Below, in pieces: positions 759 to 7,500 of a stretch of DNA of 9,228 nt. The notes beneath the pieces are model-generated. The model did not search any database. It worked only from the letters and a program-made list of their open reading frames with translations, and was not told where the DNA came from. A program made the position numbers and the translations under genes. The DNA comes from JBFLYE01 sp040756715 [NCBI: bacterium] (lineage in GTDB: Bacteria; UBA9089; UBA9088), in NCBI GenBank assembly GCA_040756715.1, contig JBFLYE010000215.1, positions 1 to 9,228 of the forward strand, in the 5' to 3' direction. Every line of letters begins with the position of its first letter. Positions within the stretch are counted from its first letter, which is position 1.

Positions 759-1361
759 ATGGAAAAATTTCAGCTTGTTCCTATGGTTATAGAGCAAAGC
801 CCAAGGGGTGAAAGGGGGTATGATATATTCTCTCGCCTCCTCAAAGATAGAATTATATTTTTAGGCCTACCGATTGATGATGAGGTATCAAATATAATAA
901 CCGCCCAGATGCTCTATTTGGAAGCAGAAGACCCAGAAAGGGATATTGACATTTATATCAATAGCCCAGGGGGCATAGTTACTGCCGGGCTTGCCATATA
1001 TGATACAATGCAATACATAAAATGTGATATTTCAACCATCTGTATTGGCCAGGCTGCATCAATGGGAGCCTTAATCCTTTCGGCAGGGACAAAGGGAAAA
1101 AGGTTTGTCCTTCCCCATGCCAGGATTATGATTCATCAGCCATTGGGTGGAGCACAAGGACAAGCTACTGACATAGGGATTCAGGCAAAGGAGATCTTAA
1201 GGGTAAAGGAAGAAATAAACAAAATTCTTGCAAAACATACAGGTCAGAAGCTTGAAAGAATTGAGCAAGACTCGGATAGGGATTTTTATATGTCAGCTAA
1301 AGAGGCTGTAGAATATGGAATAGCTGATCAAGTTTTTACAAGCAGGAAAACAAAGAAGTAG
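759..1361 (+). CDS. clpP: ATP-dependent Clp protease proteolytic subunit ClpP
   Basis: ClpP is the cytoplasmic serine peptidase that forms a double seven-membered ring and degrades proteins fed by AAA+ unfoldases such as ClpX or ClpA/C. The 200-aa product is a normal length. It starts with the family's [18 protein letters not shown] (6-23), followed by RIIFLG (31-36) and YINSPGG (66-72). The catalytic triad is Ser101 (GQAASMGA), His126 (MIHQPLGG) and Asp175 (DSDRDFYM), spaced 25 and 49 residues apart as in E. coli ClpP (97/122/171). I place the start at ATG 759 rather than 717, because the 717 start adds 14 residues that lack family character, lie inside the preceding gene and have no ribosome binding site. 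ATG 759 also has only a weak one, so translation is probably coupled to the upstream stop two bases earlier. The stop TAG shares its last G with the GTG start of the HEAT gene. No unfoldase gene is visible in this window. Confidence 0.97.
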
Positions 1362-3838
1362 TGGACTTTCCGAAAATTGTTAAAAATCTTTCCGATAAAT
1401 CAATTATTTTTGGAAAAGGAAGAAGAAAAAAGGCAGTAGAAGAGCTTGCAAAAATAGGGACAGCCGAGGTAGTTCCATATCTTGTCAATGCCCTTTCTGA
1501 TTCTGATAGTGAGGTAAAAAGACATGCCTTTTCTTCCCTTTGCCATCTTTCTGACCCTTCTGCAATTGATTGCCTTTGTTCTAATTATCTTAAGGATAGA
1601 AATGAAAAGGTATGGGAGATAATTACCACAAGGGGTTTCGCACCATCATCTCCTAAAGAAAGAATCCTTTTTTTTATAAAAACAGGCCAAACCGCAAAGT
1701 GTATCCCTCCATCTTCTCCTGATATTCCTGTTCTTATTGAAATGCTAAAAGAAGGGGAAACAAAAAATGAAGCCACAAGAATCCTCTCAAGCATCAATGA
1801 TGATACTGTAAAGGAAGGACTTTTTAATAACCTCTTTTTAACCTGGAATAACACCCTTTTTTCATTTCTTATAAATACAAGCTTTCTTCCCCAAGATGAT
1901 GGAAAAAGGCTTATATTCTATCTATTTCTAGGAAGGGATGAGGATGCGCAATTTATTGAAAAGAGAAAAAAGGGCTCTTTTATTTCGGGTTATAAATCCC
2001 TTGGACTTGAGGGAAAAAATAGGCTAATAGAGATTCTGGTCAAAAAACCCTCCCTTTTACACCTTCTTTATAATCTCATTGCTTTTGAAAATAACCTAGG
2101 AATTATGAGGTCTATATTTAAACTTATTATTGAACACAAAATGAAAGAGGCGTTTTCTTTCTTTCTTAAAAGAAGGGAGGAAGATTTTATTATAAAGATC
2201 TTAAGCGGTCTTTCTATTTCTAATGAAGACCTTCTTGAGATAGGGCTTATAAAGGGAGGGCTTGTTTTGTGTATGGTATATAATTGCTTAAAAAAAAGGG
2301 GGTGGAAAACGAATGAACCACTTCTTCTTGAATTTATAGAATATGTAGGAAAGATTGAGGATGAGCTTTTAAGGGTAAATATAAGGGCTTTAGCTTCTAA
2401 CAACAAAAGGGAGGCTATATCTATTCTCTCTAAAATTAAGGATAAAAGGGCAATAGATAACTTGATTTCCCTTCTTAAAGACCAGAATTGGAGAATAAAA
2501 AGGCAGGCAAGTAATTGCCTTGTTGAAATTGGAGGAAATAGGGTTTTATCCTCTTTGATTGAGCTATTTAAGGAAAAAGATTGGGCTTTAAGGGTTATAT
2601 GCTCTGAAAGCTTAGCAATGATGGGACAGGAAAAGGTAATAGAATTTCTTATTAAGGCACAATCAGAGGAGAAATTAGAGGTTTCTGAAGAGGCTTATAT
2701 ATCTTTAGCAAAGCTTTGCCCTCCTTCTTCCCAAGATGTTTTCATTAAGGCTTTAAGACATAATAACCCAAAGATAAGGAGAATAGCAACTGCCTCCCTT
2801 GGAAAGATAGGAAGCGATAGGGCAATAAAACCCCTCATTAGGACATTAAATGATATGGATAGTGTTGTAAGGCTACAGATATCATATTCCCTTGCAAATA
2901 TTGGAAAAAGATATAATGTAAGCCTTCCCATAGAGGAAAAGGGTTTATTTGCTAAAACTGGAATTATCAAGGCAATTGGTCTTAAGGCCGAGGAGAAACA
3001 CATAGATTTTCTCCTTTCTTCCCTTAATGATGGTGATTGGAGAATAAGAAAAGAGGCGATTAGAAGCTTAAAAAAGATAGGAAAACCGTATTTTATTAAG
3101 CCATTAATTAAGATGCTTCAGGATGAAAAGCTTGAGGTAAAAAGGGAAGCATCCATTGCTCTATGCAGACTTGGTGAAGAAAAGGGATTTGGTATACTTG
3201 TGGATGGAATAAGAAGCAAGAATTGGAGTGTTCAAATACAAATGGCTCATACAATGAGCAATTATATTACAGAAAATAGAGAAAGGGTTTTTAAGCTTTT
3301 TGTTGAATTAACCAAAGACCCAGATTCCCAGACAAGGGCAGCTGCCATTATTGGCATTGGAATGATGGGGGATGAAAAATTTATCCCAACCCTTCTTATG
3401 GCATGGACGCAGGAGAGAGAGGTTGGGATAAAAAAGAGAATAATCACATCCTTAATTAATATTGGAAGCGAAAAGGGCCAAAGGGCATTTATCCTTGGGC
3501 TATCAGACAAAAGCGAAGAAATAAGAGAAGCCTCTGCATATGGATTTAAAAGATTAAGGATAAAAGATGGTTTTAGCCCCCTTATTGAAAAGATTGATGA
3601 TAATAGTAGCAGGGTAAGAAAAAGCATATTCTCATCCTTAAGGCAAATTGTTGATGAATTTGGGATGGAAATTGCTGAAAAAAACCTTGTCTTACTTGAT
3701 AAAAAGATAAGGGAATTATCTAATGAGAAAAGGGATGCCTCTGAGATTACTGAGATCTTGCTCCTTCGCCTTTCCCTTGCCATATTGAAATATAAAAAGA
3801 GGTCAGGAGGAAGATATCAGGAGTCAGGAGTTATATGA
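1361..3838 (+). CDS. Large HEAT-repeat (PBS-lyase-like) protein
   Basis: This 825-aa all-helical protein starts at GTG 1361, overlapping the clpP stop by one base. HEAT repeats of about 31-38 residues have the pattern A-x2-x-L-x-x-(I/L)-G ... A-(I/V)-x-x-L-(I/L)-x-x-L-x-(D/N). An N-terminal set covers about 24-95, a less regular helical segment about 100-340, and a long run about 348-765. Clear units are GKIGSDRAIKPLIRTLND (481-498) and KKIGKPYFIKPLIKML (571-586). Such proteins act as protein-binding scaffolds and no catalytic motif is visible. No signal peptide or membrane segment is seen, so it is probably cytoplasmic. Its place directly after clpP could mean a role in substrate delivery or assembly, but that is inference from position only. 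Arginine is almost always AGA/AGG: by hand I found one CGN codon among about 53. The last residues (about 814-825) are encoded by a GGAGTCA-type heptamer tract, so the tail may be an acquired extension. The stop TGA lies inside the methyltransferase start ATGA. Confidence 0.85.
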   Translation: MDFPKIVKNLSDKSIIFGKGRRKKAVEELAKIGTAEVVPYLVNALSDSDSEVKRHAFSSLCHLSDPSAIDCLCSNYLKDRNEKVWEIITTRGFAPSSPKERILFFIKTGQTAKCIPPSSPDIPVLIEMLKEGETKNEATRILSSINDDTVKEGLFNNLFLTWNNTLFSFLINTSFLPQDDGKRLIFYLFLGRDEDAQFIEKRKKGSFISGYKSLGLEGKNRLIEILVKKPSLLHLLYNLIAFENNLGIMRSIFKLIIEHKMKEAFSFFLKRREEDFIIKILSGLSISNEDLLEIGLIKGGLVLCMVYNCLKKRGWKTNEPLLLEFIEYVGKIEDELLRVNIRALASNNKREAISILSKIKDKRAIDNLISLLKDQNWRIKRQASNCLVEIGGNRVLSSLIELFKEKDWALRVICSESLAMMGQEKVIEFLIKAQSEEKLEVSEEAYISLAKLCPPSSQDVFIKALRHNNPKIRRIATASLGKIGSDRAIKPLIRTLNDMDSVVRLQISYSLANIGKRYNVSLPIEEKGLFAKTGIIKAIGLKAEEKHIDFLLSSLNDGDWRIRKEAIRSLKKIGKPYFIKPLIKMLQDEKLEVKREASIALCRLGEEKGFGILVDGIRSKNWSVQIQMAHTMSNYITENRERVFKLFVELTKDPDSQTRAAAIIGIGMMGDEKFIPTLLMAWTQEREVGIKKRIITSLINIGSEKGQRAFILGLSDKSEEIREASAYGFKRLRIKDGFSPLIEKIDDNSSRVRKSIFSSLRQIVDEFGMEIAEKNLVLLDKKIRELSNEKRDASEITEILLLRLSLAILKYKKRSGGRYQESGVI
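3802..3831 (+). repeat. Heptamer tandem-repeat tract (CAGGAGT type)
   Basis: GTCAGGAG (3802-3809), an 8-nt interruption, then CAGGAGT twice (3818-3831). The 7-nt unit differs by one or two bases from the unit CGGRAGT found on the other strand at 5991-6021. The tract encodes the last residues of the HEAT protein, and its final unit contains the ribosome binding site of the methyltransferase gene. It resembles in style the heptanucleotide short tandem repeats described in cyanobacteria, without implying that lineage. Confidence 0.6.
3826..3830 (+). promoter_or_regulatory. Repeat-derived ribosome binding site for the methyltransferase
   Basis: AGGAG sits 4 nt before ATG 3835 and belongs to the last CAGGAGT heptamer. 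It favours ATG 3835 over the in-frame ATG 3856, which has only GGA close upstream. The spacing is slightly short but workable. Confidence 0.55.
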
Positions 3839-3853
3839 TTGGTGGTTTTGGAA
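3835..3853 (+). repeat. Left copy of a 19-bp duplicated edge of the RM module
   Basis: ATGATTGGTGGTTTTGGAA matches 16 of 19 bases with 5774-5792, the start of the phosphatidyltransferase gene; the encoded residues are MIGGFG and MIGSFG. The methyltransferase-like sequence proper seems to begin after this stretch (M-A-N-N from 3856). This looks like a duplicated target or a leftover of the original downstream gene start. Four of the matches (ATGA) are constrained by the overlapping stop, so the significance is moderate. Confidence 0.45.
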
Positions 3854-5010
3854 AAATGGCAAATAACGGTATAGAATTACAATACAAAGCAAAAGAAGAT
3901 TTAAAAAGGATTATCGCTATCATATCCCCAGTTACTCTCAAGGAAATCGTAAGTTTTGGTCAGAACAGACTTGATGGATGGAGCAATATGCTTATCTTCG
4001 GGGATAACTTACAGGCGTTAAGAACTTTGATAAAAGAACCAAATATCAAAGGAAAAATTAGGTTGGTATATATAGACCCTCCCTTTGGGACAAACCAAGA
4101 CTTCAAAAGTGGAATTTCACGAACAGTAAGTAAGAGTAGAGAAGACGATACCGCATATAATGATAGACTCGTGGGGGCAGAATACATTGAGTTTTTAAGA
4201 AAAAGAATTATTTTGCTTAGAGAGATAATGTCAGAGGATAGCTCAATATATGTTCACATTGATTGGAAAATGTGTCACTATGTGAAAGTTCTAATGGATG
4301 AGATTTTTGGGCAGGAACGATTTATCAATAATATTACGAGAATAAAATGCAACCCAAAAAGCTTTAGAAGAATGGCATACGGAAATATGACAGATGCAAT
4401 TCTTTTTTATTCAAAAACTGATGAGTATATTTGGAACGATCAGCGAGAAGACTTTACAGATGAACAAATAAAAACCCTATTTCCTAAAATTGATAAGGAG
4501 GGCAGGCATTATACAACACTTCCTCTCCACGCTCCAGGCGAAACTCTAAATGGACCCACGGGGAAGGAATGGAGAGGACGTAAGCCTCCAAGAGGAAGTC
4601 ACTGGCAATATCCTCCAGAAGAATTGGACAAATTAAATGAGCAAGGTTTGATTGAATGGTCATCTACAGGAAATCCACGCCGAATATATTATGCAGAGGA
4701 AGCTGTGAAAAAGGGTAAAAAACGACAGGATATTTGGGAATTTAAAGACCCTCCATATCCTTCTTATCCAACTGAAAAAAATCTTGAAATGCTCAAAACT
4801 ATTATAGAGGCATCCTCAAACCCAGATGACTTAGTTTTAGACTGTTTTGTTGGTTCTGGGACAACTTTAATTGCCGCAGAAGAGTTGGGAAGGCGGTGGA
4901 TTGGGATTGATAATTCTAAAGTTGCTTTAGATGTAGCACAAAAAAGGCTTTCATCAATAAAAAAACATTCAAGGTTTACACTATACAAGATATGGGAGAA
5001 AATGGAATGA
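3835..5010 (+). CDS. DNA methyltransferase (N6-adenine/N4-cytosine, beta-class) of a restriction-modification system
   Basis: It transfers a methyl group from S-adenosylmethionine to an exocyclic amino group of a base in a specific DNA site, protecting it from the partner nuclease. In the 391-aa product the catalytic motif IV DPPF (81-84, in LVYIDPPFGTNQDF) comes before the cofactor motif I DCFVGSGTT (336-344). This order, with YPTEKN (311-316, motif X) just before motif I and GIDNS (357-361) after it, marks the beta class (methylase N-4/N-6 family). DPPF favours N6-adenine over N4-cytosine, which more often has SPPY. The middle part, with GPTGKEWRG (240-248) and PPRGSHWQY (251-259), is typical of these enzymes; the recognition site cannot be read from it. 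ATG 3835 is chosen for its AGGAG; ATG 3856 is possible. Eight of 26 arginines are CGN, against almost none in the HEAT gene, which suggests transfer. It overlaps both neighbours by ATGA. Confidence 0.93.
   Translation: MIGGFGKMANNGIELQYKAKEDLKRIIAIISPVTLKEIVSFGQNRLDGWSNMLIFGDNLQALRTLIKEPNIKGKIRLVYIDPPFGTNQDFKSGISRTVSKSREDDTAYNDRLVGAEYIEFLRKRIILLREIMSEDSSIYVHIDWKMCHYVKVLMDEIFGQERFINNITRIKCNPKSFRRMAYGNMTDAILFYSKTDEYIWNDQREDFTDEQIKTLFPKIDKEGRHYTTLPLHAPGETLNGPTGKEWRGRKPPRGSHWQYPPEELDKLNEQGLIEWSSTGNPRRIYYAEEAVKKGKKRQDIWEFKDPPYPSYPTEKNLEMLKTIIEASSNPDDLVLDCFVGSGTTLIAAEELGRRWIGIDNSKVALDVAQKRLSSIKKHSRFTLYKIWEKME
4994..4998 (+). promoter_or_regulatory. Ribosome binding site that decides the endonuclease start
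   Basis: GGGAG lies 8 nt before ATG 5007 inside the end of the methyltransferase gene. The alternative start ATG 4992 overlaps this element and has no ribosome binding site of its own, so 5007 is preferred. It gives an ATGA overlap (5007-5010) like those at the two outer edges of the module. Confidence 0.6.
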
Positions 5011-5777
5011 ACGAATGGGTAAGAAAGAGCATAAAGATTGCTAATGCACCGGGATATTTGGATAACCTTCACAATATTTATTCTACAACAGAAGAATCAT
5101 GGAGAGCAATTTCTGTTGACACCAAAAAAGAATTAGAAGAAATTTTTAAATCCGGTGATGATGTGTCGTTGGTTAGGGAGCTATTAAGATTACCGAAGTT
5201 TCCGATCAATGACCCTTATGTAGCATTTTTACGAAAAAAGGATGTTTTCGTTAAATATAATCCTAAGACTGTTAACAGAATAGCTAAGAGAGTTCGTTCT
5301 TTGGGATTTAAGGCAATAATAGAAGCCATTGAAGAACCTAAGGCATCAAGTAGGCGAATCGGGATTCTTTTTAGAAAATGGCTACCAAGCATTGGCTATC
5401 CTGTACTTCCAGAATCCGAGTTTGGAACCTATAAAGGAATAGCATTTCTTCAAGGAAGCGATGCACAACTAAGGAATTTTGCAAACGAAAAACTTGGCTG
5501 TAATCTTGAGAAAGGACTAGATTTTCTTGCCAAAGTAAAAGATATTTATTTGATTGGGGAAGTAAAATTTCTTACTGATTATGGGGGTGCACAGAATGCA
5601 AACTTTGAAGATGCACTGAGATTGTTTAGAAAGAAGGAGGGGAATGCTATGCGAATCGCTGTCCTTGATGGTGTTGTATGGATCAAAGATGGAACAAAAA
5701 TGTATAGAACAGTTTGTGAGTTAGAAGAAACGGCTTTGACTGCCCTCTTACTTAAAAAATTCTTGGAAAGTCAATGA
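5007..5777 (+). CDS. Probable type II restriction endonuclease, PD-(D/E)XK-like
   Basis: This 256-aa protein directly follows the methyltransferase, overlapping it by ATGA, and is most likely the cognate nuclease that cuts unmethylated DNA. I do not recognise the named enzyme family. A PD-(D/E)XK-type core is readable: Asp172 in KGLDFLAKVKD (169-179), then 12 residues, then Glu185-Val-Lys187 in YLIGEVKFLTDYGGAQ (181-196). The central segment IEEPKASSRRIGILFRKWL (108-126) looks conserved and may help in structure or DNA contact. The N-terminal about 60 residues are helical and charged. There is no signal peptide or membrane segment, as expected for a cytoplasmic DNA enzyme. Four of 16 arginines use CGN codons, as in the methyltransferase. 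The stop overlaps the next gene start by ATGA. No controller (C) protein gene is present. Alternatives are a non-specific or solitary PD-(D/E)XK nuclease, but the pairing argues against that. Confidence 0.75.
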   Translation: MNEWVRKSIKIANAPGYLDNLHNIYSTTEESWRAISVDTKKELEEIFKSGDDVSLVRELLRLPKFPINDPYVAFLRKKDVFVKYNPKTVNRIAKRVRSLGFKAIIEAIEEPKASSRRIGILFRKWLPSIGYPVLPESEFGTYKGIAFLQGSDAQLRNFANEKLGCNLEKGLDFLAKVKDIYLIGEVKFLTDYGGAQNANFEDALRLFRKKEGNAMRIAVLDGVVWIKDGTKMYRTVCELEETALTALLLKKFLESQ

Positions 5778-5792
5778 TAGGTTCTTTTGGAA
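5774..5792 (+). repeat. Right copy of the 19-bp duplicated edge of the RM module
   Basis: ATGATAGGTTCTTTTGGAA is the natural start of the phosphatidyltransferase gene and matches 3835-3853 at 16 of 19 bases. Together the two copies bracket the methyltransferase-endonuclease pair almost exactly (about 1.94 kb apart). Confidence 0.45.
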
Positions 5793-6349
5793 GGAGATAT
5801 ACCTTTGTTTTAGACCCATTGGTCATTATTTTAAAAAAAATGGGTCTTTCTCCCAATGCATTAAGTATTATCGGCTTAATTATGTGTATTGCCTCAGGTT
5901 TTTGTTTTGCCATTGGGGATTTTATCTGTGGGAGCCTTTCCCTTCTTATTGCTGGATTACTTGATATATTGGATGGCAAACTCGCTAGAGACTCCCCACT
6001 TCCGACTTCCGACTCCCGACTTTATTTTGGTGCATTCCTTGATTCCTCCCTTGACAGATATGGCGATTCTTTTGTATTCTTTGGGATTATCTATCATTAT
6101 TTAGAAAACCATATTTTGGTAATTGTTTCTTTATTTAGCCTTATGGGTGCTTATCTTACAAGCTATATCAAGGCAAGGGCAGAGAAATGGATCAAGATAA
6201 ATGTTGGTCTCTTGGAAAGGCCAGAAAGAATTATCTTGCTGATAATTGGAGGGCTTACACGGATGGATATAGCCTTGTGGATACTGGCAATACTTGGAAA
6301 CATAACCGCAATCCAAAGGATTATCTATGTAATGCGGAATGCAGAATAA
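5774..6349 (+). CDS. CDP-alcohol phosphatidyltransferase, phosphatidylinositol-phosphate synthase type
   Basis: This membrane enzyme of 191 aa probably joins inositol-1-phosphate to CDP-diacylglycerol, giving phosphatidylinositol phosphate and CMP. The family signature is complete in its key residues: Asp64, Asp67, Gly68, Ala71, Arg72, then Gly86, Asp90, Asp94 (DILDGKLAR ... GAFLDSSLD). SYIKARAE (130-137) and ERPER (148-152) match the mycobacterial PgsA1-type phosphatidylinositol-phosphate synthase and archaetidylinositol-phosphate synthase rather than phosphatidylglycerol-phosphate synthase, and the inositol-phosphate synthase gene lies 29 nt downstream. Hydrophobic segments fall at about 33-63, 99-127 and 153-185. 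The start ATG overlaps the endonuclease stop and has GGAAAG at 5765-5770. Oddly, 13 residues separate Arg72 from Gly86, where the signature normally has 8 or 9; the extra ones come from an in-frame heptamer tract (5991-6021). All metal-binding residues remain, so activity is plausible but not certain. Phosphatidylglycerol-phosphate synthase is the less likely alternative. Confidence 0.85.
   Translation: MIGSFGRRYTFVLDPLVIILKKMGLSPNALSIIGLIMCIASGFCFAIGDFICGSLSLLIAGLLDILDGKLARDSPLPTSDSRLYFGAFLDSSLDRYGDSFVFFGIIYHYLENHILVIVSLFSLMGAYLTSYIKARAEKWIKINVGLLERPERIILLIIGGLTRMDIALWILAILGNITAIQRIIYVMRNAE
5991..6021 (-). repeat. Heptamer tandem-repeat tract inside the phosphatidyltransferase gene
   Basis: On the plus strand the units are ACTCCCC, ACTTCCG, ACTTCCG, ACTCCCG and a partial ACT; on the minus strand this is a CGGRAGT repeat, related to CAGGAGT at 3818-3831 but in the opposite orientation. 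It is in frame and encodes D-S-P-L-P-T-S-D-S-R-L (residues 73-83), in the loop between the two halves of the catalytic signature. Confidence 0.7.
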
Positions 6350-6378
6350 AAAAATCCAAAATAAAACGGGAGGTAAAG

Positions 6379-7500
6379 ATGAAGAAGATTAAAGTTGCCA
6401 TTGTGGGGGTTGGGAATTGTGCAAGTTCCCTAATTCAGGGGATTGAGTATTACAAAGGGAAATCACAAGATGAGGTAATCGGGCTGATGCACCATAATTT
6501 GGGTGGTTATAAGCCAGAGGATATTGAATTTATAACAGCCTTTGATATTGATAAAAGAAAGGTAAATCTTGATTTATCAAGCGCAATATTTCAGAAGCCT
6601 AATTGCACAAAGAAGATCTGCAATGTGCCATTTATGAATGTAAAGGTTGAGCTTGGATTTTTATTGGATGGTGTAGCAAGGCATATGCTAAATTATCCAG
6701 AGGAGCAAACATTTGTCATTGATGAATATTTGGATGATTTTGTTCCCGATGATAAAAGGAGCGAGGCAATGGAAAGGATTGTTAAAATCCTAAAGGAAAA
6801 GGGTGCAGAGATTTTAATAAATTACCTGCCGGTTGGCTCCCAGCATGCCACAGAATTCTACATCGAATGTGCCTTAGAAGCAGGATGCGGGGTAATAAAT
6901 TGTATACCGGTATTTATTGCCTCAAATAAAGATTGGGAGAAAAAATTTAAGGAAAGAAACCTTCCCATTATTGGCGATGATATAAAATCTCAGGTGGGAG
7001 CAACCATTGTCCATCGGGTTTTAACCAAGCTATTTGAGGATAGGGGGGTTTTGCTTGAGAGGACATACCAGCTAAACACAGGAGGAAATACAGATTTCTT
7101 AAATATGCTAAACAGAGATAGGCTGGCCTCTAAAAAAATTTCAAAGACGCAATCGGTCCAATCCCAGCTTAAAACCCCTTTAGCTCCTGAAAACATCCAC
7201 ATTGGTCCCTCTGACTATGTCCCCTGGCAAAAGGATAACAAGGTATGCTTTATACGGATGGAGGGAAGGGGTTTTGCCGATATTCCATTAAACCTTGAGT
7301 TAAGGCTCTCGGTTGAAGATAGCCCAAATTCTGCGGGTGTGGCAATTGATGCAATAAGATGCCTTAAGCTTGCTCTGGAGAGAAAAATAGGAGGGGTAAT
7401 AATTGGCCCCTCATCCTATTTTATGAAATCTCCACCCAAGCAATTTTCGGATACAGAGGCAAGAAGGCTTACTGAGAAGTTTATTGCTAATAAAACCTAA
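6379..7500 (+). CDS. ino1: Inositol-3-phosphate synthase (myo-inositol-1-phosphate synthase)
   Basis: This NAD-dependent cytoplasmic enzyme converts glucose-6-phosphate to 1D-myo-inositol 3-phosphate (L-inositol-1-phosphate), the headgroup precursor for inositol lipids. The 373-aa product has the compact prokaryotic length. It shows the Rossmann motif VGVGNCASSL (9-18) with acidic Asp56 after the second strand, NYLPVGSQ (148-155), GDDIKSQVGAT (199-209), NTGGNTDFLNM (233-243), IGPSDYVPW (275-283) and VEDSPNSAGV (312-321), all typical of the actinobacterial, archaeal and Thermotoga-type enzyme. The start ATG 6379 has the strong ribosome binding site GGGAGGT (6368-6374) at 4-5 nt; the longer reading frame from 6187 lies inside the preceding gene and adds 64 residues without family character. 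It sits between the phosphatidyltransferase and a PH-like protein gene, whose ATG overlaps its TAA by one base. The substrate for downstream lipid synthesis is inferred from context. Confidence 0.95.
   Translation: MKKIKVAIVGVGNCASSLIQGIEYYKGKSQDEVIGLMHHNLGGYKPEDIEFITAFDIDKRKVNLDLSSAIFQKPNCTKKICNVPFMNVKVELGFLLDGVARHMLNYPEEQTFVIDEYLDDFVPDDKRSEAMERIVKILKEKGAEILINYLPVGSQHATEFYIECALEAGCGVINCIPVFIASNKDWEKKFKERNLPIIGDDIKSQVGATIVHRVLTKLFEDRGVLLERTYQLNTGGNTDFLNMLNRDRLASKKISKTQSVQSQLKTPLAPENIHIGPSDYVPWQKDNKVCFIRMEGRGFADIPLNLELRLSVEDSPNSAGVAIDAIRCLKLALERKIGGVIIGPSSYFMKSPPKQFSDTEARRLTEKFIANKT

Follow-up and report, generated by a model that had tools for sequence, protein, structure and literature searches.

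The window analysed here, i.e., the whole 9,228 nucleotides of contig JBFLYE010000215.1 from the bacterial assembly GCA_040756715.1 (JBFLYE01 sp040756715), contains a cassette of a DNA methyltransferase gene followed by a Tsp45I-family restriction endonuclease gene, which was very probably inserted at the start of a PgsA-like CDP-alcohol phosphatidyltransferase gene with duplication of the first 19 bases of that gene. This entry had been proposed in an initial annotation of the window and is supported by an empty site in relatives and by residues which are missing in homologous methyltransferases. The empty site, the extra residues MIGGFGK of the methyltransferase and the borrowed stop codon of the endonuclease together point to a module that entered at the phosphatidyltransferase start and duplicated this start. 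Alignment of the locus with its relatives and homologues demonstrates the empty site, the duplication and the native module ends, whereas the course of the event has to be described more cautiously.

The methyltransferase and the endonuclease are predicted to form a type II restriction-modification pair of the Tsp45I family. The methyltransferase gene (3835..5010, + strand) matched the N6_N4_Mtase profile PF01555 over the entire length of the profile (E 1.5e-49) and the PADLOC profile MTase_II (E 5e-160). The endonuclease gene (5007..5777, + strand) matched the Tsp45I profile PF06300 (E 4.2e-69; 233.4 bits with a cut-off of 25) as well as the PADLOC profile REase_II (E 2.7e-54); in the PF06300 search, the frame was tested from position 4992, and residues 7-260 of this frame aligned to positions 1-259 of the 260 profile positions. 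A PF06300 match above the cut-off next to an N6/N4 methyltransferase of the same subfamily corresponds to the composition of Tsp45I systems. Seven homologous methyltransferases were aligned and showed 50-56% identity, most of them adjoining a PF06300 gene. The cassette (3854..5773, + strand) holds these two genes alone and no recombinase gene. Likewise, no inverted repeats of at least 12 bases were found at the module ends; two such pairs occur within 3700-6400, both of them elsewhere.

Upstream of the module lies a HEAT-repeat gene (1361..3838, + strand; HEAT_2, PF13646, E 2.3e-66), downstream the phosphatidyltransferase gene (5774..6349, + strand; PF01066, E 5.6e-12), which is open over its full length. 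According to the initial annotation, these two host genes once overlapped directly, and such an uninterrupted junction is present in G001, a genome of the same genus. Its contig 104 keeps the order of ClpP-like, HEAT (80% identical to the gene in the window) and phosphatidyltransferase genes, with the module absent and one copy of the 19-base stretch; the HEAT gene ends at 6767 and the phosphatidyltransferase gene starts at 6764, forming an ATGA overlap. In G002, which belongs to the same family, the two genes are 6 bases apart, again with a single copy and no module, upstream of the inositol-phosphate synthase gene. Matches to PF06300 were obtained in 12 of 386 genomes including the own genome of the window, but not in G001 and G002, which are drafts of about 97% and 95% completeness. 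An empty single-copy site in a relative, as compared in published insertions with long target duplication, is therefore found twice. In G003 and G004 (same taxonomic order) as well as in G007, the phosphatidyltransferase gene has different neighbours; the HEAT gene, too, precedes some other gene in G003 and G004. Thus, the adjacency of both genes is seen only within the family.

That the module is ancestral at this site and was cleanly excised from G001 and G002 through recombination of the two 19-base copies is considered highly improbable. Repeat-mediated deletion of a restriction system, in that case via an 80-bp repeat, is described in passages of PMC7494987. Nevertheless, two independent losses would be required here, and the other neighbours of the phosphatidyltransferase gene in G003 and G004 speak against an old module at this place. 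Moreover, the nearest homologous modules found among the 386 genomes and the best 80 of 411 related loci lie outside the phylum, some of them in archaea.

The native ends of the module became apparent from its homologues. The nearest one with the same gene order, locus L090 of a Cloacimonetes genome (identical to L096 by position and values), has a methyltransferase 72-73% and an endonuclease 65% identical to those of the window. Its methyltransferase starts with MAKN, which aligns with Met8 of the window's protein (MANN, position 3856), so that MIGGFGK represents extra residues, and the 97 bases seen 5' of the L090 gene are AT-rich and unlike those of the window. The homologue table comprises 92 rows with and 10 rows without a methyltransferase match, 102 in total; the former include the window and four genomes listed twice. 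Within the N-terminal stretches as printed, MIGGFG occurs in none of the 91 other methyltransferase rows and only in the window's own. The question raised in the initial annotation, whether residues 1-7 are absent elsewhere, is hence answered positively, with the closest same-order homologue beginning at Met8. As for the endonuclease end, FLESLG-stop (L096, L097) or FLESQG-stop (L098) is found in three of the nearest homologues. The DNA at the end of the L098 gene (ttcttggagagtcaggggtaa) is very like that of the window (ttcttggaaagtcaatga), where the endonuclease ends with FLESQ and the stop is supplied by the ATGA of the phosphatidyltransferase gene. From the native start in L090 and these endonuclease ends it follows that the insert would be almost exactly the coding cassette, from 3854/3856 to 5773. 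In other words, its left edge appears to lie immediately 5' of the native methyltransferase start, and its right edge at about the penultimate codon of the native endonuclease.

The order of both genes varies within the family. While both family profiles (PF06300 and PF01555) are matched, the window shows the rarer arrangement, with the methyltransferase first in 10 of the 92 rows (the window and one twice-listed genome included) and the endonuclease first in 76. A third arrangement, with methyltransferase and endonuclease on opposite strands, was observed in six rows (L098, L102, L104, L105, L107, and L147). In L092 and L102, moreover, the endonuclease gene contains an in-frame stop or seems frame-shifted close to its 3' end, which may indicate decay, with the methyltransferase still open.

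The left target copy (3835..3853, + strand) corresponds to the first 19 bases of the phosphatidyltransferase gene and now forms the first methyltransferase codons (MIGGFG), whereas the right copy (5774..5792, + strand) is the intact phosphatidyltransferase start, present once in G001 and G002. Both stretches had been located correctly in the initial annotation, as had their identity at 16 of 19 bases, and the similarity ends beyond them. The pair was missed by a repeat finder with a seed of 9; no more than 8 consecutive bases are identical in it. Only the start-codon register lends significance to the 19-base match, while the similarity alone is ordinary for this genome. This bears on the possibility that the likeness of both starts is coincidental, with the module placed between the two genes and its methyltransferase having gained seven codons from unrelated DNA. 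Such a coincidence would be in line with the frequency of 16/19 matches: in the own genome, the phosphatidyltransferase 19-mer occurs with up to 3 mismatches at four places, both copies included, and its backward control at three. It would also be in line with an open flank search over 78 loci (after exclusion of five self or duplicate loci, six with opposite strands and three with the last gene running off the locus), in which the window's pair scored 10, inside the null range with its 95th percentile of 11. However, both copies begin at a start codon whose ATGA overlaps the preceding gene, and in 20 contigs of the own genome (G000) and 20 stretches of G001, none of 11,612 ATGs and none of 3,356 ATGAs matched the rest of the stretch equally well (for the ATGAs, at least 12 of the remaining 15 bases). 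The calculated chance of such a start-on-start match is 2.5e-5 per ATGA. Furthermore, the match covers exactly the stretch which is lacking in the closest homologue. A mere coincidence is accordingly regarded as very unlikely.

All three ATGA joints described in the initial annotation were confirmed, each with long open frames on either side: HEAT/methyltransferase (3835-3838, the TGA within being the HEAT stop), methyltransferase/endonuclease (5007-5010) and endonuclease/phosphatidyltransferase (5774-5777). The idea that ATGA coupling was kept at every joint holds in so far as all three are ATGA, but only the right-hand one is new. The left ATGA is already found in the empty G001 and is thus older than the insertion. 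The inner joint belongs to the module, as the methyltransferase and endonuclease genes of L090 also overlap, in that case by 8 bases. Consequently, the right joint would be the sole one produced by the insertion event. As such, ATGA joints are no rarity in this genome: among 222 open frames of at least 80 codons, listed mechanically from the sample, 17 have one.

With respect to the course of the event, a promoterless coding cassette with the methyltransferase first would have entered where the PgsA-like gene overlapped the HEAT gene by ATGA. The left copy would have become the methyltransferase start, by which the methyltransferase can be read as MIGGFGK fused to the native Met8. The right copy would keep the phosphatidyltransferase whole, with its ATGA replacing the lost endonuclease stop. 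As we infer, the most likely routes of entry are integration at a staggered break and microhomology-driven copying. Selection would retain such an insertion because the downstream gene stayed intact and the methyltransferase could be translated at once from a host signal. As to possible carriers, a plasmid was rejected with the endonuclease matching two plasmid records at only 33% and 31% identity, and a phage with 564 phage records matching the methyltransferase at less than 60% identity throughout. Distant endonucleases (33-42% identity) were found on 13 viral contigs.

Direct repeats also flank other modules of the family. Within at most 350 bases from both module ends, they were detected at 11 of 83 modules; the controls, 321 equally long segments taken from these loci, showed them in 10 cases (p 0.0009). 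When only repeats with a length of 25 bp or more and an identity of 80% or more were counted, five of the 83 modules (L092, L116, L125, L126, and L163) had them, as did three of 856 control segments, all three from one locus (p 0.0002). Self or duplicate loci, loci without a methyltransferase match, spans above 3.5 kb and flanks below 150 bases had been excluded from the set of 83. A wider survey with 1.5-kb flanks revealed repeats at 17 of 97 loci as compared to two of 200 mismatched pairs; it includes repeats far from the module, L182 and L183, which look like one locus, and a near-identical 489-bp pair in L139, maybe an unrelated repeat, so the surveys with same-locus controls are the better tests. 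Among the strong cases, the repeated 86 bp of L092 extend over the end of a sigma-70 gene, and the repeated 81 bp of L163 are the end of an FtsJ/S4-domain gene. L126 carries 31 identical bases starting with ATG on both sides of the module and is a second candidate for gene-start capture. At the contig end, its right copy merges into the ATG of a C5-methyltransferase gene (PF00145, E 3.3e-9). The left one extends into a short frame (MKNFIQELQWRGMIQDCMPN) of 26 residues, for which Pfam gave no match and which we presume to be tyrS-like. Positions 4893-7053 of L126 thus seem to hold two restriction units stacked at one gene start.

Several points weigh against an insertion with duplication of the gene start. 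The duplication is short, its two copies disagree at 3 of 19 bases, and the bare word lies within chance. The direction, gain rather than loss, rests on G001 and G002 as the only two empty relatives available. The endonuclease ends differ in L101 and L103, and those of L100 and L102 look frame-shifted; since the TCA before the phosphatidyltransferase ATG also occurs in G002, the right edge can be placed only to within a few bases. In the survey, 72 of the 83 modules are without a flanking repeat, and the p-values are rough because the several control segments per locus are not independent. The BLAST setting of the survey misses the 19-bp pair of the window itself, for which reason short duplications are undercounted. 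Translation through the joints by coupling and use of the host operon promoter are inferred as well. Finally, the best homologue of the module shows 73% identity, and no closer donor was found.

The latter touches on the possibility that the module arrived by homologous recombination from a strain already holding it at this place. The insertion would then have happened in that strain, and the differences between the copies would reflect two alleles of the phosphatidyltransferase start. We consider this origin rather unlikely, albeit the most serious of the alternatives. The right copy is indeed nearer to G002 (17/19) than to G001 (15/19), and the left one likewise (16/19 and 14/19). On the other hand, the whole phosphatidyltransferase is nearer to G001 (79% identity) than to G002 (70%), and no donor was found among the 386 genomes or the best 80 of the 411 related loci.

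Nobusato et al. in 2000 and Furuta et al. in 2010 reportedly described insertions of restriction-modification genes that were accompanied by long target duplications. Several papers refer to such insertions, citing the former work (PMC3031569, PMC3874152, PMC4978471, PMC1643837, and PMC7494987), and two of them also cite the latter (PMC3031569 and PMC3874152). The locus resembles these cases by the lack of any other mobile element, by the comparison with a module-free relative and by direct repeats at both ends (16/19). It differs in length, as the published repeats are long and variable, in the order of 100 bp according to the passages available (PMC3874152), whereas the 19 bp of the window are a gene start fused in frame to the methyltransferase. 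Insertion into operons was reported for the PabI family and other systems, too (PMC4615327). Similar to these, the restriction genes of the window lie on the same strand as the co-directional host genes of a putative operon; however, the passages concerned describe no duplicated start codon or four-base overlaps, and in one insertion 4 bp were replaced. A transposon-like restriction unit with short target duplication carries imperfect terminal inverted repeats, which are not found here. In the passages available of PMC3120642, restriction systems that entered with long duplications are not mentioned. Since operon insertion and target duplication are both published, both halves of the event are of known kinds. 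The insertion, which had been called unusual in the initial annotation, is hence unusual at most in its gene-start capture. For the latter, with a chimeric methyltransferase and a borrowed stop, no printed account was found in the text portions available, which is thin evidence of absence.

The recombinase-free movement of restriction systems is an old question, and here the site can be read base by base before and after the event. The joint would explain why immediate expression of a promoterless cassette is conceivable without silencing of the downstream gene. As a speculative generalization, to which we attach little confidence, Tsp45I-family modules might move as bare coding cassettes and prefer sites where an essential host gene starts (or ends); duplication of the start would capture a translation signal for the methyltransferase, and translation of the essential gene would come to depend on the preceding endonuclease gene. 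If true, host operon and module would hold each other in place. The recurring flanking repeats of the family offer a set of cases for testing the mechanism.

Regarding codon usage, the hand counts of arginine CGN codons in the initial annotation proved right: they account for 8 of 26 arginines in the methyltransferase and for 4 of 16 in the endonuclease, together 12 of 42, while the HEAT gene has 1 of 53. The contrast is real, but it is a weak argument for foreign origin and was dropped as proof, as 11% of 55 sampled genes of the own genome reach at least this share. Avoidance of the recognition site, which we take to be GTSAC for Tsp45I, was likewise dropped as proof of an active system. The observed/expected ratio was 0.53 in the sample of the own genome and 0.43 in that of G001 without the module, thus about equally depleted. 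GTSAC, GGWCC, and CTWAG each occur at approximately half the expected frequency in both samples, module or no module.

The 3' end of the HEAT gene contains a remnant of a seven-base repeat (GTCAGGA-type; 3802..3831, + strand) with a 90% match elsewhere in the genome. The empty G001 features a perfect (GTCGGAA)n array at the same place, so the array predates the insertion and was rejected as its cause. It possibly played a role as microhomology, since AGTCAGG-like bases occur in the array as well as at the probable native end of the endonuclease. The array pattern matched in 13 of 19 genomes and exceeded its backward control in G001 (23 vs. 7), the own genome (8 vs. 3), G010 (71 vs. 28) and G007 (2 vs. 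0), but not in the nine other matching genomes. Within the phosphatidyltransferase gene, an in-frame array of the GTCGGAA type on the minus strand was observed at 5990-6024, where G001 differs; the HEAT gene of G001 ends in the same kind of array.

Altogether, the genes of the window lie on one strand in the order of a presumably ClpP-like gene, HEAT-repeat, methyltransferase, endonuclease, CDP-alcohol phosphatidyltransferase, and inositol-1-phosphate synthase. At the contig end (9137-9228), AT-rich repeated words (AATTTTGAATTCTAAATTTTGAATTTTGGATT) were observed, and G001 features other simple AT-rich arrays after its phosphatidyltransferase gene.

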